From a virus, in the IMG/VR virus record IMGVR_UViG_3300042731_005522, positions 1-20,374 of that record: a DNA stretch of 20,374 bases; one strand, 5' to 3'. Positions 304-16,972 of this stretch are shown here, one piece after another. The notes below the pieces were generated by a model that saw only the letters and a program-made list of their open reading frames with translations, did no database searches and was not told the origin of the DNA. Position 1 is the stretch's first letter. Each line of letters opens with the position of its first letter. A program made the translations under genes and the position numbers.

Positions 304-852
304 CTATTTTATACTATTCTCAACTCTCATTTGTTTAACAACTTGTTGCACCACCAACCTAACCATTTCAGCAGTTTCTTGTCTGCGGTCTCTTGCTAAA
401 ATAGTTTTCATCTGAGTCATTAGTTCAATTAATTGCTTGTTCATTGAAGTAATTTCTGTTCTGGTCTCATCCCTTTTTGAATCTGCATCTTTCACAATTC
501 CTTTTAATTCAATAGTAATGTCATCCAGCTTTCTGCAAAAATTATCTTGAAACATTTTTTGCTGCATGTGACACTCCTCTCTCATATCTATACACATTGG
601 AACAGTTTGAAATTTAAACTGCTCATCTTTATCAAATAAAACATTATGTGGTATAAAATTATTATTTTCTAATTTTTTTATTTTTTCAAAAACAACATCT
701 AATTGTTTTTCCATAAAAGGAATTTTTCCTTTCAAAACCACAAGAACAGAAACTACAAAACCAATAACAGCCACACCTATAGGCCAATATGTTTTTATAA
801 AAGTGGTTATAGCATATGTCTCATCTGTCAAAATTGGATCTGTCATAAGCAA
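304..852 (-). CDS. Membrane-anchored coiled-coil protein, possibly linked to tail or lysis functions
   Basis: This 182-residue protein has one clear hydrophobic segment at about residues 22-41 (PIGVAVIGFVVSVLVVL), followed by a Lys-rich stretch. Beyond it lies a long charged, probably helical region: residues 44-65 and 105-180 look coiled-coil-forming. Three cysteines (87, 94, 106) sit between the helical parts. A single N-terminal anchor with a soluble coiled coil fits a small phage membrane protein at the end of a tail module, such as a holin-associated or spanin-like factor, but no family is recognised. Two starts are possible. TTG at 852 is 5 bases from AAGGAG. ATG at 846 is 11 bases away and gives MTDPILTDE. 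The TTG has the better spacing. It lies 9 bases after the last LamG-like gene. Confidence 0.75.
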   Translation of the reverse strand: MLMTDPILTDETYAITTFIKTYWPIGVAVIGFVVSVLVVLKGKIPFMEKQLDVVFEKIKKLENNNFIPHNVLFDKDEQFKFQTVPMCIDMREECHMQQKMFQDNFCRKLDDITIELKGIVKDADSKRDETRTEITSMNKQLIELMTQMKTILARDRRQETAEMVRLVVQQVVKQMRVENSIK

Positions 853-861
853 GAATTCTCC

Positions 862-1884
862 TTATGTAGTTATTTCTAAACCAAACTCTGCTGCTTCTAA
901 TTTTGTTTGCGTCCAAGCATTTGAATCATCTGGATCTGTTTCCCAAATCTCTGAAATAAACACATAATTAGCAGGAATATTATCTGTTTCTGTACCAGAG
1001 TAATTTGTACTATTAGATCTAATTAAAGGAGTTATTTTTCTGGTTCCTGCTTGATCTATTCTAACATGATTATTTACCTGTATTCCTTTAACTGTTCCCA
1101 ATGCTCCTGTAGTTATTCCAAAAGTTTGTTTATCATTTAATGTATCTGAATAAATATAATCTGTATCTTCATTTGATTGTTCTTCATCAACGCAATCATC
1201 TTTATTTCCAGCAGAAGCAGTAAAATCATTATTGGTAGAGGATACTGAATCAGGATAAAAAGGTTTAACTTGACAATCTCCATGAAATTGTGAACTATCT
1301 ATATAAAAATCATCTAACCATGCAACATCAGTTTGAGAAGTTCTATGAATATGTCCAAACTCAATATAACGTATATAATCTGTACCTATTTTTGTATCCT
1401 GATTAGTTAAATTTAAAACTTGAGATTCATTTACTCTCATTGTAACTATTCCAACAGTATTAGAAATAGTTACTCTAATTTCTAAATATTGCCAAGTTAA
1501 AGGTTTTAAAACACCATTTGCTGTTGATCCTAATAAAGTATTACTGCCATCATAAACACCAAAACCATCATTAGAATTCCAATGTATTTTTACTTGATCT
1601 GCATCAACTTCATCTGTAAATTTAATAAAAGGATAAGTGGATGAATAAACCGATGTTTCCCCACTATCTTTATAAAAAGCTATACCCATATAAACAGTAG
1701 TTAAATTTTGACCAATATCTTTTCTAACTTTATCATTATAATCATCCAAATAAATTCCAAGACCATAACCAAAACGAGAATAATTAACATGCTGTGCAAC
1801 TGGATTCCATGTTACATATCCTTTATCATATGCACGATCAGCACCATAATAATGATCAAAACCATCCATAAATAATAGTGTCAT
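862..1884 (-). CDS. LamG/concanavalin-like tail adhesin, paralog 1 of 3
   Basis: This 340-residue protein is predicted to be beta-rich. Residues 1-198 resemble the LamG/concanavalin A-like jellyroll of phage structural proteins. It opens with MTLLFMDGFDH and contains strands such as YLEIRVTISNTVGIVTMRVN and the closing DDFYIDSS. Residues 203-340 form a second conserved region starting at GDCQVK. That region includes a DEEQSNEDTDYIYSD segment and the ending AWTQTKLEAAEFGLEITT. This two-part layout is common in phage accessory structural proteins that probably bind glycans. It is closely related to the proteins at 1911-2915 and 3163-4167, and is the most diverged of the three around residues 205-255. 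An AAGGGG ribosome binding site lies in the shared 26-bp spacer. No catalytic motif is visible, so a binding or decoration role is inferred. Confidence 0.85.
   Translation of the reverse strand: MTLLFMDGFDHYYGADRAYDKGYVTWNPVAQHVNYSRFGYGLGIYLDDYNDKVRKDIGQNLTTVYMGIAFYKDSGETSVYSSTYPFIKFTDEVDADQVKIHWNSNDGFGVYDGSNTLLGSTANGVLKPLTWQYLEIRVTISNTVGIVTMRVNESQVLNLTNQDTKIGTDYIRYIEFGHIHRTSQTDVAWLDDFYIDSSQFHGDCQVKPFYPDSVSSTNNDFTASAGNKDDCVDEEQSNEDTDYIYSDTLNDKQTFGITTGALGTVKGIQVNNHVRIDQAGTRKITPLIRSNSTNYSGTETDNIPANYVFISEIWETDPDDSNAWTQTKLEAAEFGLEITT
869..1121 (-). repeat. 253-bp 3'-end repeat of LamG-like genes, copy 1
   Basis: This 253-bp segment covers the end of the first paralog. It is highly similar to 1918-2170 and 3170-3422, with long identical runs including the stretch around GTCCAAGCATTTGAATCATC. 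It encodes the conserved C-terminal about 84 residues (ALGTVKGIQV to GLEITT). Confidence 0.85.
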
Positions 1885-1910
1885 TTTATTATCCCCTTAC
1901 TAATTATTAA
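1885..1910 (-). repeat. 26-bp intergenic leader, copy 1
   Basis: This spacer lies between the stop at 1911 and the ATG at 1884. On the minus strand it begins TTAATAATTAG and continues with AAGGGG and GATAATAAA before ATG. It is nearly identical to 2916-2941 and 3137-3162, with differences only inside the ribosome binding site. Confidence 0.9.
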
Positions 1911-2915
1911 TTAAGTGGTTATTTCTAAACCAAACTCTGCTGCTTCTAATTTTGTTTGCGTCCAAGCATTTGAATCATCTGGATCTGTTTCCCAAACTTC
2001 AGTATAAAAAATATAATCTTGAGATATATTATCTGTTTCTGTACCAGAGTAATTTGTACTATTAGATCTAATTAAAGGAGTTATTTTTCTGGTTCCTGCT
2101 TGATCTAAACGAATATGTTGATTAACTTGTATTCCTTTAACAGTTCCCAATGCTCCTGTAGTTATTCCAAATAAAGATTTATGATTAAGAGTATCTGAAT
2201 AAATATAATCTGTATCTTCATTTGATTGTGCTTCATCTACACATTCATAATCATTTGATCCGGTGGATCTTGTAAAATCTGAAGAATTACCATCAGCATC
2301 AGGATAAAAAGTTTTAACTTCACAATCTCCATGAAATTGTGAGCTATCTATATAAAAATCATCATACCAAACCCCACCATTATATAAATGTCCAAATGCA
2401 ATATAACGAATATATTCTGAACCATTTCTTGTATCTTTAGAAGTTAAATTTAAAACTTGAGATTCATTTATTCTCATTGTAACTATTCCAACAGTATTAG
2501 AAATAGTTACTCTAATTTCTAAAAAATACCATTTATAAGAATTGTAAACATCATCAGATGTAGATCCCAATAAAGTATTATCCCCCCTGTAAGCAGAAAA
2601 ACCATAACTTGAATTCGGATGAATTTTTACTTGATCTACTCCAGATTCATCTTTAAAAGCAACTAAAGGATAATTGGAATGATACCCTGGATTAGACCCA
2701 AAACTTTTTCTAAAAGCTATTCCAATATAAACAGTAGTTAAATTTTGACCAATATCTTTTCTTATATACCTACCAAAGTCCAATAAAAGAAGTCCTAAAC
2801 CATTACCAGAACGAGAATAATTAACATGCTGAGATGTTGGATTCCATCCATTATATCCCTTATCAGTACCAATATTATTATAATGATCAAAACCATCCAT
2901 AAATAATAGTGTCAT
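1911..2915 (-). CDS. LamG/concanavalin-like tail adhesin, paralog 2 of 3
   Basis: This 334-residue paralog has the same N-terminus (MTLLFMDGFDHY) and C-terminus (AAEFGLEITT) as its two relatives. The jellyroll spans about residues 1-190 and the conserved C-terminal region about 195-334. Its affinities are mixed. The central strand region (LTTVYIGIAF, VTISNTVGIVTMR) matches the 862-1884 protein. From GDCEVKTFYPDADGNSSDF onward it matches the 3163-4167 protein almost exactly. This suggests recombination or gene conversion between copies. An AAGAGG ribosome binding site lies in the repeated spacer, 26 bases after the small repeat protein's stop. It is probably a virion-associated carbohydrate-binding protein, inferred from the fold and context. 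Confidence 0.85.
   Translation of the reverse strand: MTLLFMDGFDHYNNIGTDKGYNGWNPTSQHVNYSRSGNGLGLLLLDFGRYIRKDIGQNLTTVYIGIAFRKSFGSNPGYHSNYPLVAFKDESGVDQVKIHPNSSYGFSAYRGDNTLLGSTSDDVYNSYKWYFLEIRVTISNTVGIVTMRINESQVLNLTSKDTRNGSEYIRYIAFGHLYNGGVWYDDFYIDSSQFHGDCEVKTFYPDADGNSSDFTRSTGSNDYECVDEAQSNEDTDYIYSDTLNHKSLFGITTGALGTVKGIQVNQHIRLDQAGTRKITPLIRSNSTNYSGTETDNISQDYIFYTEVWETDPDDSNAWTQTKLEAAEFGLEITT
1918..2170 (-). repeat. 253-bp 3'-end repeat of LamG-like genes, copy 2
   Basis: This has the same length and frame as copies 1 and 3. It shares with copy 3 the codons for FYTEVWETDPDD, where copy 1 has FISEIWETDPDD. Confidence 0.85.
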
Positions 2916-2941
2916 TTTATTATCCTCTTACTAATTATTAA
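2916..2941 (-). repeat. 26-bp intergenic leader, copy 2
   Basis: This has the same spacer length and sequence as the other two copies, with AAGAGG as the ribosome binding site. It separates the 64-residue repeat gene from the second LamG-like gene. Confidence 0.9.
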
Positions 2942-3136
2942 TTAAGTAATAATATTAATTAATGGTGGATTACCACCACCAATTTTAATTAAGGCTTCAA
3001 CTACAACCTGTGAATTTCTCATATTGGGATTGGCATTAGTTTCTAAAGTTTCAACAACCACTTGTGTATTTCTCGTATTAGGATTGGCATTTGTTTCTAA
3101 AGTTTCAACTACTATTTGTGTATCTCTAACAGCCAT
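2942..3136 (-). CDS. Small 18-residue-repeat protein (RxTQxVVETL repeats)
   Basis: This 64-residue protein consists mostly of two and a half tandem 18-residue units. Each begins RDTQIVVETL, RNTQVVVETL or RNSQVVVEAL, and the first two close with ETNANPN. A Gly/Pro-rich tail (GGGNPPLINIIT) follows. Comparable short Q-V-V-V-E repeats occur in phage tail and appendage proteins, where they probably form beta structure. That comparison is from general knowledge. The ATG at 3136 follows an AAGGAG site in a 26-bp leader nearly identical to those of the two flanking LamG-like genes. The small size could suggest a degenerate fragment, but the good ribosome binding site and regular in-frame repeats argue for a real gene. 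The function is unknown; a linker or decoration subunit is possible. Confidence 0.72.
   Translation of the reverse strand: MAVRDTQIVVETLETNANPNTRNTQVVVETLETNANPNMRNSQVVVEALIKIGGGNPPLINIIT
2990..3127 (-). repeat. 54-bp tandem repeat, 2.5 units, coding for 18-residue units
   Basis: Units lie at 3127-3074, 3073-3020 and a partial unit at 3019-2990. They encode R-N/D-T/S-Q-V/I-V-V-E-T/A-L, and the full units end in ETNANPN. Silent changes between units indicate that the repeat is not brand new. Confidence 0.85.
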
Positions 3137-3162
3137 TTTATTATCTCCTTACTAATTATTAA
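3137..3162 (-). repeat. 26-bp intergenic leader, copy 3
   Basis: This is the same spacer with AAGGAG as the ribosome binding site, leading into the 64-residue repeat gene. A related AATTAATAATTA stretch precedes the ribosome binding site of the gene at 4932-5354. Confidence 0.9.
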
Positions 3163-4167
3163 TTAAGTGGTTATTTCTAAACCAAACTCTGCTGCTTCAA
3201 GTTTAGTTTGAGTCCAAGCATTTGAATCATCTGGATCTGTTTCCCAAACTTCAGTATAAAAAATATAATTAGCAGATATATTATCTGTTTCTGTTCCTGA
3301 ATAATTCGTACTATTAGATCTAATTAAAGGAGTTATTTTTCTCGTTCCTGCTTGATCTATTCTTACATTATTATTTACCTGTATTCCTTTAACTGTTCCC
3401 AATACTCCTGTAGTTATTCCAAATAAAGATTTATGATTAAGAGTATCTGAATAAATATAATCTGTATCTCCATTAGATATTACTTCATCAACGCATTCAT
3501 AATCATTTGCTCCTGTTGATCTTGTAAAATCTGAAGAATTACCATCAGCATCAGGATAAAAAGTTTTAACTTCACAATCTCCATGAAATTGTGAGCTATC
3601 TATATAAAAATCATCATGCCAAATATTGCCATTTAAATAAAAAGGACAAAAACTAACATATCTTATATAATCTGTACCTATTTTTGTATCTTTAGAAGTT
3701 AAATTTAAAACTTGAGATTCATTAAGCCTAAAAGTTACTTCACCAACTGTATCAGAAACAGTCACTTTAATTTCTAAAAAATACCATTTGTTATCTATAA
3801 TAATATTATTATTAGTAGAACCTAAAAGAGTTTGATTCCCATTATAAACAGAAAAACCATAAGAAGGATTCATATAAATCTTTACTTGAGATACAAATGA
3901 TTCATCATGAAAAACAATTGTAGGATATACAGAATTATAAATTGGAGTACCTGTACCTGCTTTTAAAAAAGCAATTCCTAAATAAATAGTAGATAAATTT
4001 TGACCAATATCTTTAGTTATTCTATTATTTATACTACTACCTAATTGTATGCCCCGACCAGAACCAAAACGAGAATAATTAGAACTATAAGAACATACAA
4101 AATAAGAATACCCTTTGTTAGAATGATCATCTCCATGATCAAAACCATCCATAAATAATAGTGTCAT
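3163..4167 (-). CDS. LamG/concanavalin-like tail adhesin, paralog 3 of 3
   Basis: This 334-residue protein is the first of the LamG-like array to be transcribed. It starts MTLLFMDGFDHGDD. The jellyroll covers about residues 1-190, with strands such as FLEIKVTVSDTVGEVTFR and the closing DDFYIDSS. A conserved C-terminal region begins at GDCEVKTFYPDADG and ends AAEFGLEITT. The surface-exposed middle differs most from the other copies (for example YFVCSYSSNYSRFG and SFCPFYLNGNIWHD), as expected if the copies bind different ligands. The AGAGG ribosome binding site overlaps the stop region of the preceding gene. The leader matches the repeated spacer only over its first 12 or so bases. No enzymatic residues are evident. 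Confidence 0.85.
   Translation of the reverse strand: MTLLFMDGFDHGDDHSNKGYSYFVCSYSSNYSRFGSGRGIQLGSSINNRITKDIGQNLSTIYLGIAFLKAGTGTPIYNSVYPTIVFHDESFVSQVKIYMNPSYGFSVYNGNQTLLGSTNNNIIIDNKWYFLEIKVTVSDTVGEVTFRLNESQVLNLTSKDTKIGTDYIRYVSFCPFYLNGNIWHDDFYIDSSQFHGDCEVKTFYPDADGNSSDFTRSTGANDYECVDEVISNGDTDYIYSDTLNHKSLFGITTGVLGTVKGIQVNNNVRIDQAGTRKITPLIRSNSTNYSGTETDNISANYIFYTEVWETDPDDSNAWTQTKLEAAEFGLEITT
3170..3422 (-). repeat. 253-bp 3'-end repeat of LamG-like genes, copy 3
   Basis: This is the third copy. A few silent differences (for example AGTTTAGTTTGAG for ATTTTGTTTGCG on the plus strand) set it apart from the other two while the protein stays almost unchanged, which suggests selection on the protein. 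Confidence 0.85.
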
Positions 4168-4181
4168 TTTATTATCCTCTA

Positions 4182-4919
4182 TTAAACCCTTATACCTACT
4201 ATAGTAATAACAACATCTTTTAATGATGCGTCTGCCGTATCAGGCGCATAAATTTCTACCCAATCTCCAGCATCTAAAGTAACTTTACTATTCCATGTAA
4301 AACTACCTGTAGTTGCAGAAGCAGAAATATCAGCACTTCCTTTAGAAACTTGATTAACTTGTATATCAAATGAAATAGATCCGGTAGGAGCAATTTTACA
4401 CTTAATAAAACTGTAAGGCAAATTTTTTCTTAATTCTACTGATTCAGATCCAGAAACCAAATGCATAAAAATCAATTGATCATCAGTAAAAAGACCTGGA
4501 GAAGAAACCCCCATTACATATATAGGTAAAAACTTATCTGTTTTCCCTTTATTTTTTTCATCTCCAACATCTCCTGTTGCACCATTCCAAAGAACAGTAG
4601 CTACTGGAACTTGAGTAGAAAGATCCCAAATAGTTTGAGAAGCCCCTAAAACACCACTTGAATTATAAGAAATATACCAAAGACCATTAACATCATCTAT
4701 TTGAACATTTTCAGCAGAAGTTTTTTCATAACGAGTTCCAAAAGCCCAAAAAACAAAAGAATCTCCTGTTGGCTGAATTGTAAACGTTCTTGTTCCATTA
4801 TCAAAAGATAAAGAACTATCAGTAGGATCTTCAAAACCTGTGGACTCATTTACAATTTCATTATAAAAATTATTGACTTCTACTGACCCACCACCTAAAG
4901 AAATTAATTTAGTAGACAT
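4182..4919 (-). CDS. Beta-rich phage tail/appendage structural protein
   Basis: This 245-residue protein has two visible parts. Residues 35-125 contain the pattern SFDNGTRTFTIQPTG, then FWAFGTRYEKT, VQIDDVNGLWYISYNSSG and GDVGDEKN. This resembles a domain frequent in phage tail-fibre and appendage proteins that lies before a G-D-E-R/K-H-G-like motif. Residues 165-245 look like a small jellyroll (LPYSFIKCKIAPTGSISFDI, then LDAGDWVEIYAPDTA) of the type that often ends such proteins. Canonical relatives are usually longer, so this may be a compact version. The AGGAG site is 9 bases from the ATG and overlaps the preceding stop. It sits directly before the LamG array and is probably part of the same host-recognition set. 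The role is inferred. Confidence 0.75.
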   Translation of the reverse strand: MSTKLISLGGGSVEVNNFYNEIVNESTGFEDPTDSSLSFDNGTRTFTIQPTGDSFVFWAFGTRYEKTSAENVQIDDVNGLWYISYNSSGVLGASQTIWDLSTQVPVATVLWNGATGDVGDEKNKGKTDKFLPIYVMGVSSPGLFTDDQLIFMHLVSGSESVELRKNLPYSFIKCKIAPTGSISFDIQVNQVSKGSADISASATTGSFTWNSKVTLDAGDWVEIYAPDTADASLKDVVITIVGIRV

Positions 4920-4931
4920 AATTATTATCTC

Positions 4932-5354
4932 CTATTTTCTTTCTTCTACTGTAATTGTTCCTGCTGCTGTAAATTCAAATATAATTTGATCACAATTACA
5001 ACCAACAGAAAGTTCCCTCATAGTATTTACAGGAATTGGTAAACCAGGAGTATTTGATTTAGATCTGATAAAAGCAGTAACATCAACGGAAGAATTATGA
5101 ATGATAATTAATTTAGTTTCTCGATTAACTGAATGAGTTTGATCATTTCCTGGGCCAGTAGAAGTAACTGTTGTAGCTTTCATTAAAGGATTAAAATAAG
5201 GAGCAGGATTCACTTCTGTTAAATTAGAATCAAGCAAAACATATTCAGTTGTTTTTTGTTCACCAGGATTAAATTTAAAAGTCTTCATATTACCATTTTG
5301 ATCTTCAACTTTTTCTGTAATAATGTTTGATGTTTCATTTTTATAAATTGGCAT
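4932..5354 (-). CDS. Small beta-rich structural protein of unknown function
   Basis: This 140-residue protein begins MPIYKNETSNIITEKVE. Its short beta-like stretches include TKLIIIHNSSVDVTAFIRS, a loop with GCNCDQ, and the closing IIFEFTAAGTITVEER. The fold looks like a single small beta-sandwich with no signal peptide or membrane segment. No family is recognised. It is the first gene after the 38-bp gap that follows the glycosyltransferase, and it has the strongest ribosome binding site in this part of the window (AAGGAGG, about 5 bases before ATG). A sigma70-like promoter candidate overlaps the end of the glycosyltransferase. If it is real, this gene heads a separate adhesin transcript. A minor virion component is the most likely role. 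Confidence 0.72.
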   Translation of the reverse strand: MPIYKNETSNIITEKVEDQNGNMKTFKFNPGEQKTTEYVLLDSNLTEVNPAPYFNPLMKATTVTSTGPGNDQTHSVNRETKLIIIHNSSVDVTAFIRSKSNTPGLPIPVNTMRELSVGCNCDQIIFEFTAAGTITVEERK

Positions 5355-5381: not shown

Positions 5382-5410
5382 ATTATACACTATTATACAT
5401 TATAACTCAA
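5382..5410 (-). promoter_or_regulatory. Candidate sigma70-type promoter at the head of the adhesin cassette
   Basis: On the minus strand TTGAGT (5410-5405) is followed after exactly 17 bases by TATAAT (5387-5382), a perfect -10 box with a 4-of-6 -35 box. A second TATAAT lies inside the spacer. Transcription would start about 20 bases before the AAGGAGG of the next gene. It overlaps the end of the glycosyltransferase, in the longest gap of the window. Chance matches are common in AT-rich DNA, so this is a candidate only. Confidence 0.38.
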
Positions 5411-6271
5411 GACATTATCTATTATTTGATCTGGTTCAATCATAGCAATGCAACGTCCGTAAGGTCTTCCTTTCCAACGATCTAAACAATCATATGCTTG
5501 TGAAATCCAGCAACCCCTTGTTTTACAACAATCTAATTTTCCAACGGTGTGTAAATATCGATGATCAGGATACCGTTCCCAATTTGGATCTTCTCTACCT
5601 CCAGCAACCACCACACAAGGCTTATTAAAAGCTGCTGCTACATGCATATGTAATGAAACATGACCAATAGTTCCTTGAGAATGCAAAACTAAAGAAAAGA
5701 AATCTCTTAAATTTTCAGTTTGTCCAACTACCGTTTTATAAATATTATTATGTATTGGATGAATATCATTTTTACTGCCTACCTGAACGAGTCTAATTCC
5801 TTTTTTTGAAAGACCGTCAATAACTTTTTGCCATAAATTAGGAGGATAACCTTTTATGGGAATATCACTTTTTACTCCAGTATTAATTATCCAATATGGT
5901 TTTTTAATCTCTAAACGTTCAAGAATTCTTTCAGTTTTTTCATCAAAGGTTAAATGAATATCAGGTTTCATCGATGTTTTTTTAATTAAAATATTATACA
6001 TATCATTAAGAACACAAATAAAAGCATCCGAAAAATGATAACCTTTAGGAGCAATTTGATCTCTTACTTTTGCGTAATTTAAATTAACTATAGGAACACT
6101 ATTGTTTTTAGGAAAATAAATTAAATAAGGATTATTAAAAAAAACTTCTGGATAACAAGTAAAAACATCTGTTCTAAATTTTCCAGGGTATATTTTATGC
6201 AAATCTCTAATTGCTACAGTTAACATTAATAAATCACCTGGAGCTTGCCATTGTTTAAATATTATATCCAT
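5393..6271 (-). CDS. GT9-like (heptosyltransferase-type) glycosyltransferase in the tail operon
   Basis: This 292-residue protein looks like a compact glycosyltransferase family 9 enzyme; cellular heptosyltransferases are usually near 320-350 residues. The N-terminus has a GD motif with Asp13 and a following helix (PGDLLMLTVAIRDLHKIYPG), matching the GD position of WaaC-type enzymes. The C-terminal Rossmann half has VGSKNDIHPI, then IGHVSLHMHVAAAFNKPCVV, the expected nucleotide-sugar site. A GGREDPNWERYP segment and a Cys-rich tail (Cys248, 249, 254, 262, 274, with DCCKTRGCW) place it in a distinctive subgroup. It would transfer a sugar from an activated donor. The acceptor is unknown and could be a tail protein, other phage glycan or host surface sugar. 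Its ATG overlaps the stop of the propeller-collar gene in a TAATG, tying its translation to structural proteins. Confidence 0.85.
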   Translation of the reverse strand: MDIIFKQWQAPGDLLMLTVAIRDLHKIYPGKFRTDVFTCYPEVFFNNPYLIYFPKNNSVPIVNLNYAKVRDQIAPKGYHFSDAFICVLNDMYNILIKKTSMKPDIHLTFDEKTERILERLEIKKPYWIINTGVKSDIPIKGYPPNLWQKVIDGLSKKGIRLVQVGSKNDIHPIHNNIYKTVVGQTENLRDFFSLVLHSQGTIGHVSLHMHVAAAFNKPCVVVAGGREDPNWERYPDHRYLHTVGKLDCCKTRGCWISQAYDCLDRWKGRPYGRCIAMIEPDQIIDNVLSYNV

Positions 6272-7491
6272 TATTGTATCCGTATATAAGAATCAATTCC
6301 TGGTTGATTTTTTTGTATTAAATTAGGCACACAAAATTTTGTCTGAGGATCATAATCACCATAAAAATATTTATAAATATAATCAAAAGAACTTTCGCTG
6401 GATTCAAATGATGGAACAATCATAAAACGCTCATATTCAGCATCAAAACCACAAGGTCTTTCTGCTCCATCCTGATTAAATCCTGGGCCTGAAAAGTTAA
6501 CCCAAGCTCCACCATCTTTTTGATAATAACCTCTAAAATAGTTATCTACTACAAACCAAATATGACAATCACCATCCCAAAGAGTGCCATTTTGAAAAAA
6601 TTGATATGACTCAGCCCATCTTGATCCAAGCAATTCTACTGACCAAGTATCACCATCATCATAAGATACATATACTTGATTTATACCATAAGTTATATCA
6701 TCGATAGTAAACATCCATTTATCACTATCAGGAAAATACATCACATTAGATGCATAAACAGTCATGTCATAAGGTCTAAACTGATATTCAAAATACTCCT
6801 TATTTGTCCAGTTTATACCATCAGTCGAATGATAAATATATGGGGAAGTTGCTTCACTGATAATCATTAATTCATTATTATTTAAGTCAACAGCTATTCC
6901 GCTTTTATCTGGAGATGGCATACTTGATCTTTGTGTCCATGTAGATCCATTAGAAGAAGTAAAATAAGTTCCTCCATCAGATGCATAAAGAATCCATTGA
7001 GTACCATCCCAAATTAAATGTTCCCAAAGTCCAGATGAAGACAATGCTGAAGCAGAACTCCATGTAATACCATCTGAAGAATAAGCAACTACTGTACTAT
7101 TATATCCTACAGCAACAAACTGACTATTTGCATATCTTACAATTCTCCAATCCTGTGAAGATGGAAGATTAGTAGAATATTCTGTCCAGTTATCACCACC
7201 ATCTGTTGATCTCCAATGATACCTTGTCGTTCCCCCAACCATAACAATTGTGTTCCCATTAATTGCTACTGATTTAATTCTAACAGAAGGAGTATTTGTA
7301 AAAGTGAGTCTTTCATATTTTTGAAATCTCAATGGATGAAGATCAACGCAATTATTTACATATTCAGGATAAGAAGATTTAAGATAATTCGATCCATCAC
7401 ATAAAACCCATCCAGCACCAGGACTACCTTGAGCATTAACAATAGCTCCTATAGGATGTTCAACTGAATCAGATATAGGATAAAGTTTCAT
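6271..7491 (-). CDS. Tail-collar/beta-propeller fusion protein 2
   Basis: This 406-residue protein appears to be a tail-collar domain interrupted by a beta-propeller. Residues 12-42 (HPIGAIVNAQGSPGAGWVLC, DGS, SSYPEY) match the start of phage tail collar domains. The matching end seems to be at 385-406 (KFCVPNL, then SYIRIQ). Between them lie Asp-box-like turns of the BNR/sialidase type near residues 93-102 (WRSTDGGDNW), 137-144, 177-185, 221-228 (HSTDGINW), 275-283 and 322-330, spaced about 40 residues apart. This predicts a propeller of roughly six blades. Asp boxes are structural, and no sialidase catalytic set is evident, so ligand binding is more likely than cleavage. The start has an AAGGG site 7 bases away and overlaps the previous stop (TAATG). 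Confidence 0.82.
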   Translation of the reverse strand: MKLYPISDSVEHPIGAIVNAQGSPGAGWVLCDGSNYLKSSYPEYVNNCVDLHPLRFQKYERLTFTNTPSVRIKSVAINGNTIVMVGGTTRYHWRSTDGGDNWTEYSTNLPSSQDWRIVRYANSQFVAVGYNSTVVAYSSDGITWSSASALSSSGLWEHLIWDGTQWILYASDGGTYFTSSNGSTWTQRSSMPSPDKSGIAVDLNNNELMIISEATSPYIYHSTDGINWTNKEYFEYQFRPYDMTVYASNVMYFPDSDKWMFTIDDITYGINQVYVSYDDGDTWSVELLGSRWAESYQFFQNGTLWDGDCHIWFVVDNYFRGYYQKDGGAWVNFSGPGFNQDGAERPCGFDAEYERFMIVPSFESSESSFDYIYKYFYGDYDPQTKFCVPNLIQKNQPGIDSYIRIQ

Positions 7492-8690
7492 TATTTAGCC
7501 CTTATAAAATAGTAAAGATTATTAACTCCAAACTGATTGCGAGAAATTCTTGGCAATTGAAAATAAGTAGAATTATTAAAAATATATTCTTCACAGTAAG
7601 TCATATAACGATACCAAGATTCTATTATAAAAATTTTTCCTGTAGAACTATTATATCCTGCTATTTGAGGAGAAGAAACACCCCCCATATTTATTACCCA
7701 AGGATAAAATCTTTTTAAATCTGGAGATCTAACACCAACACTTTGACCACTATCATCAGGAAGCGCAAACCATTGATCTTTGAAATAATACCATTTAATT
7801 CCAGATAAATTCAATTCTCTTGGAGAAAAATTAGAATAAATCTCACCACCTATATTTTCCCAATTAGTAAACCATATTTTTTTCCATTCAAGACCATCAG
7901 AAGAAATAATAGTATATCCTGTTCTGTATTCAGCAGGTAAAATAAAATAACCGTTCGCATAAGATATTGGTGTACCATAATCCGTACCAAGAGGATAAGG
8001 AGCATAAAATACCGTTGTCCAATTACTACCATTATCTGTAGTTCTCATTATATGACCATTAGAACGCATTGCCAAAGTAATTCCTGATCCATTAGTAGCA
8101 ATTGAATGTGCGCCAACCGGAAATGTTCCAGCACTACTCCAATTAATACCATCAGTAGATCTTCTGCATTGAGTGTCATCATTGGCAACTGGAATAAAAT
8201 AAGTTCCATCCCAAACAAGACCCTCCCAATCAGAAGTCGCTGGCATTGTTCTTCCTGTCCATGATGATCCATTAGTAGAAGTAGCTGAGTTGGTACTGTT
8301 ATAAGCAATCGTTAAAAAAACAGTTCCATTCCAAGCACAGCACAAATATGTTCCGGTATTTGGTAAAGCCACATACGTCCATGTTTCACCATTATCAGAA
8401 TAAGCAGAATCTCCACTTTCTCCTACTGCTACCCATCGACTACCACTATAAGCCAAAGCATAAAGACCAGAAGAATCAAAATTAGAATCTAATGGTCTTT
8501 TAGTATATGTATATTGCCAAGCATAGGGATTATCAGTATCTAATGCTGCCAACAATTCAGCATAAGTAGATCTTGAAAGTAATTGTCCTTCACACTTTAT
8601 CCAATTATCATTAGGAGGACACGTTGCTTCAATGATAGATCCTATTGGATATAATTCTTGTGTTTGAACTGATGGATGCAAAAGAGTCAT
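7491..8690 (-). CDS. Tail-collar/beta-propeller fusion protein 1
   Basis: This 399-residue paralog-like neighbour has the same architecture as the 6271-7491 protein. A collar-like opening is at residues 14-50 (YPIGSIIEATCPPNDNWIKC, EGQLLSRSTYAEL). Asp-box turns follow near 97-104 (YSDNGETW), 137-144 (TSTNGSSW), 177-184 (RSTDGINW), 216-224 (RTTDNGSNW) and 262-269 (ISSDGLEW). A collar-like ending is at 376-399 (YFQLPRI, then FGVNNLYYFIRAK). The near-regular 40-residue spacing indicates a propeller inserted between collar halves. A surface-binding role on the tail tip is inferred from the collar family, whose members sit on phage fibres. A GGAG site lies 7 bases from the ATG. The start overlaps the previous stop and the stop overlaps the next start, both as TAATG. 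Confidence 0.82.
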   Translation of the reverse strand: MTLLHPSVQTQELYPIGSIIEATCPPNDNWIKCEGQLLSRSTYAELLAALDTDNPYAWQYTYTKRPLDSNFDSSGLYALAYSGSRWVAVGESGDSAYSDNGETWTYVALPNTGTYLCCAWNGTVFLTIAYNSTNSATSTNGSSWTGRTMPATSDWEGLVWDGTYFIPVANDDTQCRRSTDGINWSSAGTFPVGAHSIATNGSGITLAMRSNGHIMRTTDNGSNWTTVFYAPYPLGTDYGTPISYANGYFILPAEYRTGYTIISSDGLEWKKIWFTNWENIGGEIYSNFSPRELNLSGIKWYYFKDQWFALPDDSGQSVGVRSPDLKRFYPWVINMGGVSSPQIAGYNSSTGKIFIIESWYRYMTYCEEYIFNNSTYFQLPRISRNQFGVNNLYYFIRAK

Positions 8691-9762: not shown

Positions 9763-10014
9763 CTAAGTAAATGTCTTGACTACCTGCCAAGAACTATTAT
9801 AATAAACTTTTTCTTGATTATTTGTAGTATCTATCCATCGCATTCCTGTTGATGGTGTAACATCAGGCCAATTAGTTGCATGACCTGGAGGATTAGCACC
9901 AGGGAATCCAAGCAATGCTGCTTCTAATCTATCCATGTTATTATTTACTTCTTCATCGTATCTTACTGTACGGTATGCAGGTTTTGAAAAATTAAATGCT
10001 GTCGTATAAGCCAT
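9763..10014 (-). CDS. Small tail-associated protein
   Basis: This 83-residue protein begins MAYTTAFNFSKPAYRTVRYD. An E-V-N-N-N-M-D-R-L-E-A helix follows, then a Pro/Gly-rich loop (GFPGANPPGHATNWPD) and an ending MRWIDTTNNQEKVYYNSSWQ. The opening (F-x-K-P-x-Y-x-x-x-x-Y/W then N-x-N-x-D-x-L-E) resembles N-terminal attachment segments of phage tail-fibre-like proteins. The W-x-D-T-x-x-N-x-x-K-x-Y-x-x-x-x-W end is a frequent short phage motif. It is probably a compact structural or adaptor subunit. Its ATG overlaps the previous stop as TAATG, with AAAGGAG about 10 bases upstream. No alternative function is suggested by the sequence. Confidence 0.75.
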   Translation of the reverse strand: MAYTTAFNFSKPAYRTVRYDEEVNNNMDRLEAALLGFPGANPPGHATNWPDVTPSTGMRWIDTTNNQEKVYYNSSWQVVKTFT

Positions 10015-10760
10015 TAGACTAAATCTCCTTTATAAAAAGAAGCTGTTATATCAATATAATCTGCTGGAGACCATACATCATTTATATCAACTTGATATAC
10101 TTCAAATCTTAAATTAGGCTCAAAATATCCATTATCAGATACATTCATTGCTGCCGTATAAGTATAGATTGCCGAACCATCGGGATACGATTTATTAACA
10201 ATAGGAATAGTAGCAGTACGAAGCACAGAGGAATCAGAAAGACGAATAACCTTAACTTTAAATTCTTTAAGCTCATTGATTACATCTCCATCTCCATAAG
10301 AAGTATGATCCCCATAAGGAGCAGCACCATAACCATATGTTAATTTTTTTGTTCGGGTTCTCCATCTTATTTCATAATTAATTTTTAAATAACCGTATCC
10401 TCCATCAGTAAAACCAATATTTTCATTAAGCTCAACATACAAACTCATACTTTCAGATATAGCATCTCCTAAACCCAATTGTTCAATTATTTCTGTATAA
10501 TCATATTGAAACAGTATATCCCCTAATCCAAGGATTTCTGTTATATCTTCAGGTAAAATAATTGTATGGGAATCTCCTAAACCAATAGTATCTGAAAAAG
10601 ATTCTTCTGTAATAACAGAATAATCATCATTTAATCCTAAAGATTCTGAAAAATAAATTAAAAATTCAGAAACAGTTAAAGCATCATTTAATCCAAGAGT
10701 TTCTTCAATATATTCTGTGTCAGGTAATTCCTGATCTAATGTAAACTTTAATACTTTCAT
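10014..10760 (-). CDS. GLGD-repeat protein with a fibronectin-like C-terminal domain
   Basis: This 248-residue protein has two parts. Residues 19-120 carry six imperfect copies of an E-x-L/I-G-L-G/N-D motif (TLGLND, SLGLND, TIGLGD, ILGLGD, QLGLGD, NIGFTD) spaced 16-22 residues apart. Residues 125-240 look like an Ig/fibronectin III-type domain, with strands at LKEFKVKVIRLSDSSVLRTA, YTYTAAMNVSDNG and LRFEVYQVDINDVWS. Such domains are common near the C-termini of gpJ-like tail-tip proteins. The same GLGD motif ends the 1676-residue tip protein three genes earlier. SEFLIYFSESLGLNDD here closely matches KEFLLYVAESLGLGDD there. This implies recent exchange or a shared binding partner. The ribosome binding site is weak, and the start is 3 bases after the preceding stop, suggesting coupling. 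Confidence 0.78.
   Translation of the reverse strand: MKVLKFTLDQELPDTEYIEETLGLNDALTVSEFLIYFSESLGLNDDYSVITEESFSDTIGLGDSHTIILPEDITEILGLGDILFQYDYTEIIEQLGLGDAISESMSLYVELNENIGFTDGGYGYLKINYEIRWRTRTKKLTYGYGAAPYGDHTSYGDGDVINELKEFKVKVIRLSDSSVLRTATIPIVNKSYPDGSAIYTYTAAMNVSDNGYFEPNLRFEVYQVDINDVWSPADYIDITASFYKGDLV
10407..10706 (-). repeat. GLGD repeat array, six degenerate units (N-terminal part of the 248-residue protein)
   Basis: Six in-frame units encode an E-x-L/I-G-L-G/N-D core. At DNA level the cores read on the plus strand as variants of TCTCCTAATCCAAG, at about 10415, 10467, 10519, 10574, 10627 and 10684. The spacing is about 50-57 bp. It is the same repeat family as at 11984-12316, but more degenerate. 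Confidence 0.75.
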
Positions 10761-11941: not shown

Positions 11942-14900
11942 CTATAATATATTATTATTTAAAATCATCATTTGTTCTTCTAAACCCTCATCTTCAATAT
12001 AATCTAAATCATCTCCTAATCCAATAATTTCAGATATTTTAACAAGCATTTCAGCAATACTATCTGTATCTCCTAATCCAAGGGATTCATAAATATATTC
12101 TATTCCCTGTGCTACAAAATCATCTCCTAATCCAAGAGATTCAGCAACATATAATAAAAATTCTTTGATAGTTATTACATCCCCTAATCCAAGAGATTCA
12201 CTAATTTGAGCCAATGTCTCTGGAATATTAATTGAATCCCCTAATCCAAGAGATTCTATTATTCTTTCCGTTTCATCAATATTGCCTGACAACCCAAGAC
12301 TCTCAAATAAATAATGCAATTCAGGTAATTCAGAAATAGGAACATGAATTGATTCTGGAAAATAAGGTAATGTTCCATAACCAACAATATCAATACTATC
12401 AGATGGAGCTAAAGACAAATCAGAAACCAATCCATGAATAGTAAATGAAACCGCTTTAAATTCCTGGGTAGTTCCTGCCCAATCTGAAGGTACTTCATAA
12501 GAAAGAGTAGAATCATATAAATAAAGCCAAACATCATCCTCAACATAATGAGAAGTTATTTCCGTATCTTTATATCCTCTAATAACATTAGTAAAAGCAT
12601 TATTAGTCGTATCTATTCCATGATAATAAACTAACTCATTTTCAATCCAAAGAACTCCTTGAGATGGAAAAGACCCATACATTGTATCTGGATCATAATA
12701 TATTATAGTATCATCTTCATCTACATCCTGAGCCAATTTCACAGATGGTATTGTTTCATTTATAATAGTAATAAATTCATAAGCACCATTTGTTTTACGA
12801 TAAATTCTTGCACCAACAAAAAATCCAGAATCATTTGATGGTGATTTAAATAAAAAATATAAATTTCCAGTTTCAATATCTTCTTTTACCTCAAATCTTT
12901 CAACTCTATTTGGAACATAAGGCTGTGGAAAACCACCATAACCAAAATTACTTAAAACAGGAACACCATAATCATGATATGTATATGGATTAAATTCTTC
13001 TAATTCCAATTTAACTTCAAAATCCATTAATTCTTCCATTGCTATTATTCTAAACCATTTATAATTCCATCCAGTAATATCATGCTGTATAGCTATAATT
13101 TCACCCATACATAAATGCATTCCCATTAAATCAGTTTCAAATCCACAAATAAATTTTTGATAATTCCATTGATCGAGTATTCTTTGAGCCATACGTCCTG
13201 CTTGTGTAGCTCTTTTAATACCATACATTTTATAAAAATCTATTTTTTCAGGTTCTTCCAAAACATCTAATCTATAAACATCTTCAGCTTCAGCAACATC
13301 TTTTGCATAATCTAATAACCTATTTTTAAATTCGATCCTAACTTTATTAGGACGATCATGATATGATTTTTCAGCAAAAGTAAAAGATCCTTCTTTAATA
13401 TTATCTTTTATTAATGTAAATTGTTGTCCATTAGGCCAATAATAATATTGTATAGGAATTCCTAATTTTATATATGTAGAAGTTTGTTCAATTACAGCAT
13501 TAAACCGACTATCAGGCCAGGGCCACCCTAAATTAAAAACCTGACCCATATCGACTTCATCTCCTTTCCAAAAATTATCTGGATAAGAAGAAAAATCAGC
13601 ATATATTAAATCTGTTTCATCTGACAATTGATTACTTGTAAAAACAGTTTTTTCTCTACCAAAATAATGTACTGGAGTTTCATCTTTATTTGGTATAATT
13701 ATTTTATAATTATAATTTCTTAATGCATCCCATAAACAGGGAGATATAAAACCCTGACAGGTTTCTAAAACCTCTCTAATAACATCATCCATTTGTGTAA
13801 CTTGATCATAACAATTAGAAAATTGAAATCTCCTTTCATTTATTTCAAATTCTTCTGATGGAGTAATTATCTCTGCCCTAACAACTTCTTTACAAATAGC
13901 ATCTGCTTCAGTAATATCTAATTGTTGCCATAAATCAGGCCCAAAATAATGAGGTTCATAATAATATTGCCAAAAATCTTTTATTATTTCTGGAGGAGAT
14001 TCATCACAATGATACCAAAGACCTGTTCCATTACCACCAAAACCATGCCTACAAGCAGTAAAAGTTCCAAGAACTTCAATTTCTGATCCAAAAAAATATT
14101 TTTCACTATCTAATATTACGTCCGTTTTTTGAAGCATATATAATTCTCCAGCAGGATTAGAATCTGATGGAGGAATAAATTTCCAAGTTTCAAAATATCC
14201 TTTATCTAAAATATCCCCATTTCCTCTATTTACATAAAAATAAATATGATCATTAATTCCATACTTTCCTATTTGATATTTATTCTCTATATTAAAATTG
14301 CCACCATACATATAATGCCATAATGGGCCTGTTAATATACCTTTACGAAACAAAATTCTATCAACACCATGAGCAGTTATATCTAATCCATATAATGTTT
14401 CAGAATCAGGATTATCAACCACTTCATTTGAAAACTTTCCTTCAGTCAATTTAACAAAATACGTTCCCCAATCAGCAACACCATCAGAAAACCCATAACT
14501 ACTATATGATTCAAGCAAAGAATACCAAACATCTATCCATTGTTCTGTTTCAACATCCCATTCTTTTACTACTGTTGTTCCCATATAACACCAATTAGGA
14601 ATGTGTCCTCCCTGTTGAGCTTCAGGATCATGATCAATTACTTGTTCTATACCAGAAGTAAAATCGAGAACATATGAATATAAATTCATAATAGTTCCAT
14701 ACTGTTCTTCATGCCCATAAAAAAATGCTTGTTTATCTGTAGCACAAGCATAAAGACTTAATCCTGCTGTCCAATACCTTGCAGGCCCAACCCAAGAATG
14801 AGGATGATTTACTCTATGATAATCAAAAACATCAATATCACCTGTATTTTTATTTATTCTCCAACATATATGGTGAGAAAAACTCCCCTCATTACCTCCA

Positions 14901-16972
14901 ATTGTGCTTGGTTTAAATGTTGTATCAGTAAACCCCAAATCCCATAATACATCATAATATTCTGGTAAATAAGGATCTACTATAGTTGGATCGTAATCAG
15001 AGTCCGGTTCTGTAAAAAAAACAATCTCACCAGGATCAGGCGCACGTTCCATAGGAGAACTTAAAGTAACTACAGTAGGATAAGGATCAGTATAAGAACA
15101 AGATATTTGTTGAGTTAATGTTGCAACAAGTCCTGCTTTATTCCATTTTGTAGCAGCAGGGGAACACATATCAGTAGGATCTGGAGGATTACAAATTATT
15201 TGTGTAGTTGTACTTCCTTCTCCAGCAATAGCATATCCAATATCTGATGATGGATATTTTTTTAATCTAATCACTTCTCCAGGCAAAGGTATTTCTCCAA
15301 ACCCACCTGTAATTCCTCCTTGTAAATCATTAACTATTATATAAGTTTCAGTTTGTTCTGTTATTTGACACCATTTTCCAAATGATTCTTGTTGTAAAGC
15401 AGCATAATATCCCTGCCAATAATTATCTGGATATTGAGAAAAATCAGCATAAACTTTTATATAAGTATTATCACCAGAAGTAATTTCTCTTTGGTCAGAC
15501 AAAATAACATCTGTTTGAACATGACCTCCCCAAACATATATATAAGTATCATCTGATACCATTGTCATCATTTTACATGCTGGATTTGAATATTCAGGCC
15601 GACCTGAAACATTAAATTGCTCATTATGTAAAACAGAAGTTACACTACATTCAGGATCATTCATATCAAAATAAAATAAATCAAATTCAATTCCATATTC
15701 TGCATGATGCGTTTCCCAATAATTTATTCCATAAACCCCCCTCCCTTGATACGGAGTCCACCAACTTCTATTAACTAAAATATAAATTCTATCATCATGA
15801 TAATCTGTACATTGTAAAACATTTCCTCCTTCAGATATATTATCTTCAAACCATTGTTTAATTAAACTTCCATCCATTACTCCAGTATAACCATTTCCAG
15901 CAAATCTTACTATTCTTTCAGCAGGACAAACATAACTGCAATAAAAATTATTATTTTGATTATAAATTCCAACAATATATTCATATTTAGCCGTTCTACA
16001 ACTAAAATGAGTATCAATAACTATATTATATGTAGAATAATCTGATTCATTTTGATGAAGACTTGAAGAAGGTAATCCTGCTCCCCCTTTCATTGATTCT
16101 GGACTTAAAAAAACTCTACTTCTATTCACTTCTGTTGTAAAAGTAGGAAATTGATTTAATGCATTAATAGGAAGATTACCAGGATTTACATCAGTTACAT
16201 CTTTTGGTGGATTTGATATACTTGGATCTGTAGGAAGTCCAGAAAAATCAGCAAATAATCCTTTAAAATAAGCAACTGTATCAAATTTTACTGGAGATTC
16301 CTCTGGTAATTTAGTATTTACTTCTACCTCTCCATAAAATCCTTGTCCAAAAGCCCCTTTTTGACCTGAATCAAAAACAGTTATTGGAGGGTAAGGATCT
16401 AAAGGATCATCATATAGCTCATAATAATCACTTAATAAAAGATAAAACCAAACAGGCTTACTATTAAATTTAATTACTCCTAAATTATACTCAAACTCCT
16501 GAGTTCCATATTCTAAATAACGACCACAAAAATTAATAGCAAACTCTGCCCAATAAATTGATTTTTGTGCAGACAAGGACTCTATAAATGTTACCCATGC
16601 TGAAGGGGCTTCTGGAGGAAGATGACCTTCTTGCAAAAGAACACCTAAAAAAGAAACATCTGATGGATAATAAACTCCAAGAGTATTTTTATTAACCCAA
16701 ATTACTTTACCAGGACAAATATCTGTTCCAATAACATCTGGTACTGGATCTATTTTTGCTTTGTATGTTTTATATTCTGGATTATAAATATCTTTTGGTT
16801 TTGGATCAGTAGGTTTAAATAAATATCCACCAATAGACATTCCTATCATCATTCCTGGGTATCCCCCCAAGAAACCACCAATAATACCACCAGCACCAGA
16901 AGCAAGCATATACTTTCTTTTTTCTGGATCTTCTTTAAATTCTTTTGAACTTTTTTCTAAATCTATATTCAT
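11942..16972 (-). CDS. Giant gpJ-like tail-tip protein with large insertion and C-terminal GLGD repeats
   Basis: This 1676-residue protein is paralogous to the 744-residue protein encoded just before it. Residues 25-50 are a Gly-rich hydrophobic stretch (GGIIGGFLGGYPGMMIGMSI) also present in the paralog. Residues 1048-1330 align with its core (RFQFSNCYDQ, YADFSSYPD, DNIKEGSF, GIKRATQAGRM, WFRIIAMEEL). Residues 1355-1530 match its fibronectin-like C-terminal part (RVERFEV, MYGSFPSQGVLWIENELVYY). About residues 190-990 have no counterpart. They are rich in strand-turn repeats with Trp, Tyr and Cys (DDRIYILVNRSWW, SDDTYIYVWGG, HHICWRINKNTGDIDVFDYH) and look propeller-like. Six GLGD repeats fill 1553-1663. 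The ATG overlaps the upstream stop as ATGA, with no strong ribosome binding site. It probably forms the central receptor-contacting spike. Confidence 0.85.
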   Translation of the reverse strand: MNIDLEKSSKEFKEDPEKRKYMLASGAGGIIGGFLGGYPGMMIGMSIGGYLFKPTDPKPKDIYNPEYKTYKAKIDPVPDVIGTDICPGKVIWVNKNTLGVYYPSDVSFLGVLLQEGHLPPEAPSAWVTFIESLSAQKSIYWAEFAINFCGRYLEYGTQEFEYNLGVIKFNSKPVWFYLLLSDYYELYDDPLDPYPPITVFDSGQKGAFGQGFYGEVEVNTKLPEESPVKFDTVAYFKGLFADFSGLPTDPSISNPPKDVTDVNPGNLPINALNQFPTFTTEVNRSRVFLSPESMKGGAGLPSSSLHQNESDYSTYNIVIDTHFSCRTAKYEYIVGIYNQNNNFYCSYVCPAERIVRFAGNGYTGVMDGSLIKQWFEDNISEGGNVLQCTDYHDDRIYILVNRSWWTPYQGRGVYGINYWETHHAEYGIEFDLFYFDMNDPECSVTSVLHNEQFNVSGRPEYSNPACKMMTMVSDDTYIYVWGGHVQTDVILSDQREITSGDNTYIKVYADFSQYPDNYWQGYYAALQQESFGKWCQITEQTETYIIVNDLQGGITGGFGEIPLPGEVIRLKKYPSSDIGYAIAGEGSTTTQIICNPPDPTDMCSPAATKWNKAGLVATLTQQISCSYTDPYPTVVTLSSPMERAPDPGEIVFFTEPDSDYDPTIVDPYLPEYYDVLWDLGFTDTTFKPSTIGGNEGSFSHHICWRINKNTGDIDVFDYHRVNHPHSWVGPARYWTAGLSLYACATDKQAFFYGHEEQYGTIMNLYSYVLDFTSGIEQVIDHDPEAQQGGHIPNWCYMGTTVVKEWDVETEQWIDVWYSLLESYSSYGFSDGVADWGTYFVKLTEGKFSNEVVDNPDSETLYGLDITAHGVDRILFRKGILTGPLWHYMYGGNFNIENKYQIGKYGINDHIYFYVNRGNGDILDKGYFETWKFIPPSDSNPAGELYMLQKTDVILDSEKYFFGSEIEVLGTFTACRHGFGGNGTGLWYHCDESPPEIIKDFWQYYYEPHYFGPDLWQQLDITEADAICKEVVRAEIITPSEEFEINERRFQFSNCYDQVTQMDDVIREVLETCQGFISPCLWDALRNYNYKIIIPNKDETPVHYFGREKTVFTSNQLSDETDLIYADFSSYPDNFWKGDEVDMGQVFNLGWPWPDSRFNAVIEQTSTYIKLGIPIQYYYWPNGQQFTLIKDNIKEGSFTFAEKSYHDRPNKVRIEFKNRLLDYAKDVAEAEDVYRLDVLEEPEKIDFYKMYGIKRATQAGRMAQRILDQWNYQKFICGFETDLMGMHLCMGEIIAIQHDITGWNYKWFRIIAMEELMDFEVKLELEEFNPYTYHDYGVPVLSNFGYGGFPQPYVPNRVERFEVKEDIETGNLYFLFKSPSNDSGFFVGARIYRKTNGAYEFITIINETIPSVKLAQDVDEDDTIIYYDPDTMYGSFPSQGVLWIENELVYYHGIDTTNNAFTNVIRGYKDTEITSHYVEDDVWLYLYDSTLSYEVPSDWAGTTQEFKAVSFTIHGLVSDLSLAPSDSIDIVGYGTLPYFPESIHVPISELPELHYLFESLGLSGNIDETERIIESLGLGDSINIPETLAQISESLGLGDVITIKEFLLYVAESLGLGDDFVAQGIEYIYESLGLGDTDSIAEMLVKISEIIGLGDDLDYIEDEGLEEQMMILNNNIL
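11984..12316 (-). repeat. GLGD repeat array, six units (C-terminus of the giant tip protein)
   Basis: Six in-frame units encode ESLGLSG, ESLGLGD (four times) and EIIGLGD. On the plus strand the cores are variants of TCCCCTAATCCAAGAGATTC beginning near 12012, 12069, 12123, 12180, 12237 and 12288. The spacing is 51-57 bp (17-19 residues). Cores are highly conserved and the linkers vary, as in a modular repeat rather than a slipped simple repeat. Confidence 0.85.
13403..13648 (-). repeat. YADFSSYPD domain, copy B (giant tip protein residues 1109-1190)
   Basis: This segment of about 80 residues reads LIYADFSSYPDNFWKGDE, then IEQTSTYIKL and FTLIKDNI. It aligns with residues 328-399 of the 744-residue paralog at the equivalent position, so it was present before the gene duplicated. 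Confidence 0.75.
15257..15505 (-). repeat. YADFSSYPD domain, copy A, inside the large insertion
   Basis: Residues 490-572 of the giant tip protein read KVYADFSQYPDNYWQG, then ITEQTETYIIV and GEVIRLKKY. They share the order of motifs with copies B and C but lie within the paralog-specific insertion, about 620 residues from copy B. This suggests the domain was copied into a new place. Confidence 0.65.

Follow-up and report, generated by a model that had tools for sequence, protein, structure and literature searches.

A lectin-like gene cassette array in a phage tail module, with evidence for shuffling by general homologous recombination

How does a phage come to carry, side by side, three genes whose starts, ends and leaders are nearly the same and whose middles differ, and what might such a set do for it? 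The question is raised by positions 862-4167, on the minus strand, of the IMG/VR virus record IMGVR_UViG_3300042731_005522, the whole of which (20,374 bases; G+C 31%) is the stretch analysed here and is called the window below. A first-pass annotation had placed three paralogs and a small repeat gene here, with coordinates that proved right and with all of them on the minus strand, and had read them as LamG-like cassettes exchanged through constant flanks to give several ligand specificities. We consider it probable, if well short of certain, that the locus is a tail-module array of lectin-like cassettes, shuffled by general homologous recombination and used in host-surface binding. The case for exchange is carried by changes of cassette order among related genomes and by tracts shared between cassettes, and not by the constancy of the cassette ends. 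The array consists of three full-length paralogs (A1 to A3) and one repeat gene of 64 amino acids (aa), with Shine-Dalgarno (SD) bases in the leaders:

Leader of A1: 4168-4181, minus strand; short, TAGAGGATAATAAA, the final bases common to the 26-bp leader.
Cassette A1: 3163-4167, minus strand; 334 aa; variable, predicted ConA-like N-domain and conserved C-domain; first in transcription order; PHROG 2448, E 5e-31.
Leader of the repeat gene: 3137-3162, minus strand; 26 bp; SD GGAG.
Repeat gene: 2942-3136, minus strand; 64 aa; about three 18-aa repeats xRNTQVVVETLETNANPN.
Leader of A2: 2916-2941, minus strand; 26 bp; SD GAGG.
Cassette A2: 1911-2915, minus strand; 334 aa; residues 1-200 a predicted ConA-like jelly roll, 200-334 a predicted CBM (carbohydrate-binding module)-like beta sandwich; PHROG 2448, E 1.8e-31.
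Leader of A3: 1885-1910, minus strand; 26 bp; SD GGGG.
Cassette A3: 862-1884, minus strand; 340 aa; mosaic; PHROG 2448, E 4e-28.

As to what the cassettes encode, PHROG 2448, a family of no assigned function, matches all three over residues 3 to 333/339 (E 4e-28 to 1.8e-31). No Pfam family, Laminin_G_3 (PF13385) included, was found for them at E<=1, and the family profile found no match among PDB sequences; within an alignment of 53 family members, drawn from the window and IMG/VR loci, three distant members match Laminin_G_3 (best 2.3e-6). The AlphaFold (AF2) model of A2 made with this alignment (mean predicted local distance difference test score, pLDDT, 94.8) has two domains. Residues 1-200 are predicted to form a ConA-like jelly roll (VIA Z 14-17 over 164-192 residues, root mean square deviation 2.6-3.5), and the model has the two-sheet jelly roll characteristic of the ConA-like lectin/glucanase superfamily; the label LamG-like thus holds for the fold of the variable half, as judged from the model and its structure matches. 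The neighbors of this domain are TtX122, Cip1, the glucuronan lyase 2zzj, the alginate lyases vAL-1, Aly36B and PL14, a trans-sialidase lectin domain, and ERGIC-53. Its near-invariant residues are D7, G8, F9, R35, G65, E133, D185, D186, and Y188. Cip1 and glucuronan lyase keep a structural calcium site, which in Cip1 involves Asp5 and Asp206 (PMC3764139), and by their position in the model D7 and D185/D186 might lie roughly at this site.

Residues 200-334, modeled alone, are predicted to form a beta sandwich (pLDDT 95.7), for which a phi812 baseplate chain (9eui_D), IFT25, CBM6, and CBM15 tie at the best Z of 7.7; we rejected naming a family for this domain, as that value lies below the level that distinguishes families. 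The same full-length two-domain architecture is seen among predicted proteins of other phages (TM score up to 0.87-0.89), and one fold neighbor, in Achromobacter phage AchV4, is annotated as a “virion structural protein,” which is no proof of its presence in the virion. Two further members of the family, of 725-727 aa (L041:8001-10184 and L044:8001-10178), have a long insert between or within the two domains.

The alternative that survives best, to which we nonetheless give a rather low probability, is that the N-domains are polysaccharide lyases or depolymerases instead of lectins and that the array varies which capsule is cut. The lyases among the structural neighbors speak for it, as do weak Pfam Polysacc_lyase matches in 3 of the 53 members and a Pam4 homolog annotated as a polysaccharide lyase. 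However, the match is equally good for lectins and for domains without catalysis (ERGIC-53, the trans-sialidase lectin domain, and Cip1, for which no activity was detected [PMC3764139]), and the near-invariant residues look associated with the fold or with calcium and do not make an obvious catalytic set, a judgment made without a residue-by-residue motif comparison.

The two domains differ in the selection acting on them. In the window, the ratio of nonsynonymous to synonymous substitution rates (dN/dS) is 0.99, 0.76, and 0.99 over residues 13-130, against 0.22-0.44 in the C-domain; within residues 12-130, 71% of the loop positions are variable versus 45% of the strand positions. The pattern agrees with a constrained base that carries a binding face on which selection is relaxed or diversifying and, taken with the modeled fold, suggests that the copies may differ in ligand specificity.

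Has the array, then, been rearranged? Comparison with syntenic relatives (contigs bearing L numbers) reveals conserved flanks and a variable array. Cassettes fall into class A, to which the window's copies belong (end DPDDSNxWTQTKLEAAEFGLEITT), and class B (end DPSDSxxWTxAKINACEFGMEVA). With R and r for the long and short repeat gene and D and S for small flank genes, the arrays read as follows:

Window: D S A r A A
L059 (89-kb contig): D S A r B
L007/L068 (108-kb contig, its two ends overlapping inside the first A): D S A A R B B
L006: D S A A R B B (cut)
L005: A D S A R B B
L004: (end of a B) B A A
L057: R B B B A

The array is where these genomes vary, in copy number, class, and order: related contigs hold two to five copies, of A only or of A and B, in no fixed set, and five copies are found on one 108-kb contig, while most of the relatives found are single-copy. 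L004 and L005 may be one virus with seven cassettes, since both were assembled from one metagenome and their overlap, 153 bp long, is 98.7% identical. The 64-aa repeat gene of the window is the short counterpart of a 292-293 aa gene located among the cassettes in L005-L007, and it had no match in the phage collection. The comparison of copy numbers that the first-pass annotation had called for thus found variation in both number and order instead of a fixed three-copy arrangement.

The clearest reordering separates L004 and L057, which outside the array are about 92-97% identical over most of their alignable DNA (97% in aa for the downstream gene). One B cassette, L004 121-1208 and L057 874-1961, is 96.4% identical between them and has different neighbors on both sides. 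The shared stretch runs from the start codon to about 35 nucleotides (nt) into the next gene. The gene before it in L004 ends like the third B of L057 (111/120 bases), which in L057 lies two cassettes later, and the switch of matching partner falls in the final 80 bp of the gene and the opening codons of its successor. The proposal that the flanks serve as recombination sites is supported in this instance, as these breakpoints fall in the constant start and end regions.

Further observations concern these contigs. Contig ends lie inside the array in six of them (the start of L004, the ends of L005 and L006, both ends of L007/L068, and the starts of L056 and L057), which is suggestive of assemblies breaking there on population variation or repeats. 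In a more distant syntenic relative, L070:13474-18825, the same slot holds tandem proteins starting MSIIWCGGEPxD with a weak match to the family profile (E 1e-7 to 1e-16). Downstream of the L057 array, a glycosyltransferase family 9-like (GT9-like) gene (L057:5913-6838) is split into two overlapping open reading frames (ORFs) with a 99-bp near-identical duplication; it is a single ORF in L004 and L056. No relative was confirmed when bacterial and archaeal genome contigs were searched with the class A profile.

Exchange is also recorded inside the cassettes. Identical runs of at least 40 nt (up to 100) occur in 6 of 11 within-genome A pairs versus 0 of 55 between-genome pairs (Fisher p 5e-6), the pairs not being independent and L004 and L005 being taken as one genome. 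In the window, A1 and A2 share 100 nt (residues 184-217), and A2 and A3 share 82 nt (270-297) and 79 nt (307-333); L004-A2 and L005-A1, elsewhere about 60% identical in DNA, agree at every one of 100 consecutive bases (residues 137-170). A GENECONV-like permutation test on run lengths gives a global p of 0.003 for the best pairs, and the pairwise homoplasy index (PHI) a p of 0.001. In the class A C-domain, the synonymous distance is 0.41 within genomes versus 0.57 between genomes (label permutation p 0.0002). Further, the N-domain tree groups A3 with A1 and A2 (100/99), and the C-domain tree (95/94) puts it among cassettes from L004, L006, and L057, because its residues ~206-245 are of a type shared with other genomes; there are two such sequence types, DGNSSDFTRSTGSNDYECVDE and SSTNNDFTASAGNKD-xCVDE, common across genomes, and the rest of A3 is mostly closest to A1/A2. 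Another cassette, L059:9001-10005, has an A-like N-domain and a C-domain closest to that of the adjoining B cassette (60% in nt); a domain swap is possible, its branches being long and its tree placement unsure.

Plain tandem duplication followed by divergence, in which the paralogs are fixed, their N-domains diversified by point mutation, and no exchange continues, appears unlikely in light of these results. It would agree with the single clade in which the N-domain tree (100/99) unites the three copies of the window, and with a proportion of synonymous differences (pS) among the copies of 0.14-0.43, below that of backbone genes between genomes (0.46-0.58 with the window); against it stand the mosaic tracts, the conflict between the domain trees of A3, and the differences in order between genomes with 92-97% identical flanks. 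We place a still lower probability on the copies being different subunits of one fiber or baseplate decoration, kept alike by concerted evolution and without a role in specificity. That all copies have intact ORFs, each served by a ribosome-binding site of its own, and that the C-domain is under constraint, would suit such a heteromeric assembly; the variation of copy numbers and classes by genome (two to five per related contig, without a fixed set) and the many single-copy members of the family would not. Least probable of all is that assembly chimerism between co-occurring strains produced the mosaic and reordered contigs: the six contigs with an end inside the array do show assemblers struggling there, but the B-to-B1 junction of L004 recurs at the end of L005, L057 and L056, from two metagenomes, agree at 99.9-100% where they overlap (only from the last cassette onward), and identical within-genome tracts occur in four virus lineages (the window, L004/L005, L006, and L007).

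The constant ends deserve separate treatment. The first 33-36 nt from the ATG and the first 11 residues are identical among the window's cassettes, where the first 11 residues had been called nearly fixed; the 253-bp 3' ends, described in the same way, are 90% identical (228-229/253), with only the last 75 bp reaching 92-97%. The whole proteins of A1 and A3 are 71-73% identical to A2, and the cassette repeats greatly exceed what chance would give (family D1, three 300-nt copies at 82-91%). Across the wider family the start MALLFMDGF and the end WTxxxxNAAEFG recur; the 53 members, most of them from single-copy loci, show little or no variation in D7-G8-F9 of the start and in P312, W318, and G329 of the end. 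As the same residues are kept family-wide, single-copy relatives included, constant ends alone are no evidence of exchange. The earlier argument from constant flanks around variable centers therefore holds in its conclusion, through the order changes and conversion tracts, and not in its premise; the tracts themselves also lie midgene (residues 131-148, 137-170, and 184-217).

The spacers at 3137-3162, 2916-2941, and 1885-1910 have the form TTAATAATTAGTAAG[GA/AG/GG]GATAATAAA and are pairwise identical at 24-25 of 26 positions, with differences confined to SD bases, just as first described. The spacers are more alike than the paralogs are at synonymous sites (pS 0.14-0.43; P ~0.007 for at least 24/26 at 70% per-site identity), another earlier expectation; this likeness partly reflects constraint on the ribosome-binding site. 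A search of viral contigs for the exact 26-bp leader, from which the window's own record was possibly excluded, returned no match. A related leader, A/T-rich with an SD and a consensus near TAATAATTAGTTAGGAGATAAnAAA, precedes most A cassettes in the relatives; it travels with the A gene, since it is present even after noncassette genes (L059, L006, and L068). A cassette that follows a B gene starts in a TAATG overlap, with the SD GGAGGT lying within the codons for the last B residues, MEVA; at the similar B junctions L004:1153-1176 and L057:1906-1929, the final B codons (M E V A, ATGGAGGTAGCATAATG) hold the SD of the next gene. Both arrangements are directly visible, and both would allow an incoming cassette to be translated in any slot, which may be their purpose. 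As promoters the leaders were rejected: each of the three reaches a weak promoter-like score of 9/12, a match that shuffled sequence yields at least as often, for which reason we read them as translation leaders. Between A1 and A2, at the 3' end of the 64-aa repeat gene, lies a terminator-like hairpin of 12 pairs (2957-2984, minus strand), which could reduce expression of A2 and A3.

By what means might cassettes be exchanged? Of nine related records, four carry RecA-family genes (the contigs of L004, L007, L056, and L059). The annealing recombinases RecT and ERF, found in none of the related records searched, several of which are fragments, were rejected as agents, RecA being found instead. 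A diversity-generating retroelement was rejected in view of two results, namely, that reverse transcriptase (PF00078) was not found in nine related records, the 108-kb one included (the window genome itself being a fragment), and that variable columns have no adenine bias (A 36% versus 35% overall). Site-specific inversion or integration of the Gin/Cin type was likewise rejected: a serine recombinase/resolvase (PF00239) was not found in eight related records, nor a tyrosine integrase (PF00589) in nine, where incomplete records could hide one, and both in the window and in its syntenic relatives the cassettes of each array are all co-directional. Silent cassettes around one expression site, as in pilE or vlsE, are not what is found, all copies being intact ORFs with leaders. 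Since RecA occurs in relatives and neither reverse transcriptase, resolvase, nor integrase was found in the records searched, exchange by general homologous recombination is supported, and it is the simplest fit.

Taking these findings together, we propose that each cassette acts as a complete two-domain gene with its own translation start, joining a variable ConA-like N-domain to a conserved beta-sandwich C-domain. The products would most likely be virion tail proteins, anchored by the constant C-domain with the lectin domain facing glycans of the host surface. General homologous recombination, in which a RecA-like protein of the phage itself probably assists, would act where gene starts, ends, and leaders are nearly identical and in conserved core segments; it would duplicate, delete, and reorder cassettes and copy short tracts between them, while selection on the lectin domain is relaxed or diversifying. 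More tentatively, and as a possibility that we rate well below even odds, the array might be an active reservoir that rewrites host-binding lectins in the population by RecA-driven conversion and shuffling, without a retroelement or dedicated invertase, its junctions, built of constant ends with portable ribosome-binding leaders or, for B cassettes, of an SD within the final codons of the gene before, fitting any cassette to any slot.

Several points weigh against this proposal. Turnover in the window's own lineage is deduced from relatives and from its own mosaicism, the relatives closest in backbone being mostly at 65-85% protein identity and the search having turned up no backbone much nearer than about 70-80% in aa. 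All loci are metagenome assemblies, and some mosaics could be strain chimeras. At third codon positions PHI is weak (class A p 0.09, class B p 0.04), and the class B cassettes have no within-genome homogenization in C-domain synonymous distance. Relaxed constraint, and not diversifying selection alone, could give a dN/dS near 1, and gene position is the sole pointer to a place in the virion.

That position is given by the following neighbors, the minus strand carrying all main genes of the window:

Downstream flank gene: 304-852, minus strand; 182 aa; conserved; weak holin/spanin matches.
Upstream flank gene: 4182-4919, minus strand; 245 aa; conserved; weak PHROG 29809/22757 matches; some relatives have a 130-aa gene instead.
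Upstream flank gene: 4932-5354, minus strand; 140 aa; conserved.
GT9-like gene: 5393-6271, minus strand; conserved upstream flank.
Two tail proteins with Collar-domain matches: 6271-8690; upstream of the array.
Protein with weak TipJ-family and gene transfer agent (GTA) “megatron” matches: 16969-19203; tail gene upstream of the array.
NlpC/P60 protein: 19206-19682; tail gene upstream of the array.

Judged from these gene matches, the array occupies the 3' end of a tailed phage's tail module. The location expected of a receptor-binding protein is thus found, with Collar-domain, TipJ-like, and NlpC/P60 neighbors, and a distant phiCbK homolog lies between a virion-associated tail protein and an endolysin, the same tail-to-lysis position as that of the array. 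Among cultured phages, Sphingomonas phage Lucius is a distant relative. A nucleotide search of the window against the phage collection gave no match, nor did the flank gene at 4932-5354 as a single-sequence query, though its homologs are present in loci found otherwise. Elsewhere in the module, the adjoining large tail proteins at 11942-16972 and 16969-19203 look paralogous by eye, with similar glycine-rich starts and MYGSFPSxG near the C terminus, and perhaps arose by duplication of a hub gene, one copy of which has a large insertion. ESLGLGDxxx repeats occur in two neighboring tail proteins (10014-10760 and the 3' end of 11942-16972). In this virus group, GT9-like genes flank the array on both sides (5393-6271 in the window; L004:4095-4925 downstream, a weak match) and perhaps modify host glycans after infection.

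Host-range change in phages is usually viewed as the swapping of one tail-fiber tip, as inversion, or as the work of a retroelement. Here what changes appears to be an entire lectin-like gene within a tandem array whose junctions are interchangeable, and turnover is so rapid that genomes with 92-97% identical flanks already differ. Should the proteins bind glycans of the host, the array would amount to a natural combinatorial repertoire for host recognition; it would also explain the assembly breaks at this locus in the virus group, and it offers a testable role for PHROG 2448.

Several known systems invite comparison. The window cassettes resemble PHROG 2448 (a full-length match) and PHROG 6368, phage families with no function named, whose relatives are found mostly in one copy, whereas the window holds an array. 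With the ConA-like superfamily (LamG_3, Cip1, PL20 glucuronan lyase, and TtX122) they share the predicted fold of residues 1-200, and differ in lacking a Pfam match and in having an extra conserved C-domain. Serratia phage JS26 and the UniProt run A0A7G8AMI0-I5 likewise present several proteins of similar predicted fold per phage, at 11-16% sequence identity and with gene adjacency deduced from accession numbers only. Antigenic variation at pilE/pilS and vlsE proceeds by segmental gene conversion among paralogs with a constant framework and variable parts. The array shares such segmental copying, without silent partial cassettes or a single expression site. In the metaviromic islands of marine phages (Mizuno et al. 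2014, PMC3909814), conserved regions enclose variable genes of tail fiber, carbohydrate-binding, and lectin-like types. These islands are alike in setting a variable module between conserved flanks, although they were defined by read recruitment and the array from assemblies alone; that study describes no tandem paralog cassettes, and “duplicat” and “recombination” are absent from its text. Our literature searches for phage arrays of this kind found no description. The hypervariable host-recognition module is therefore a kind already known, and what is new is a tandem set of lectin-gene cassettes with mapped shuffling.

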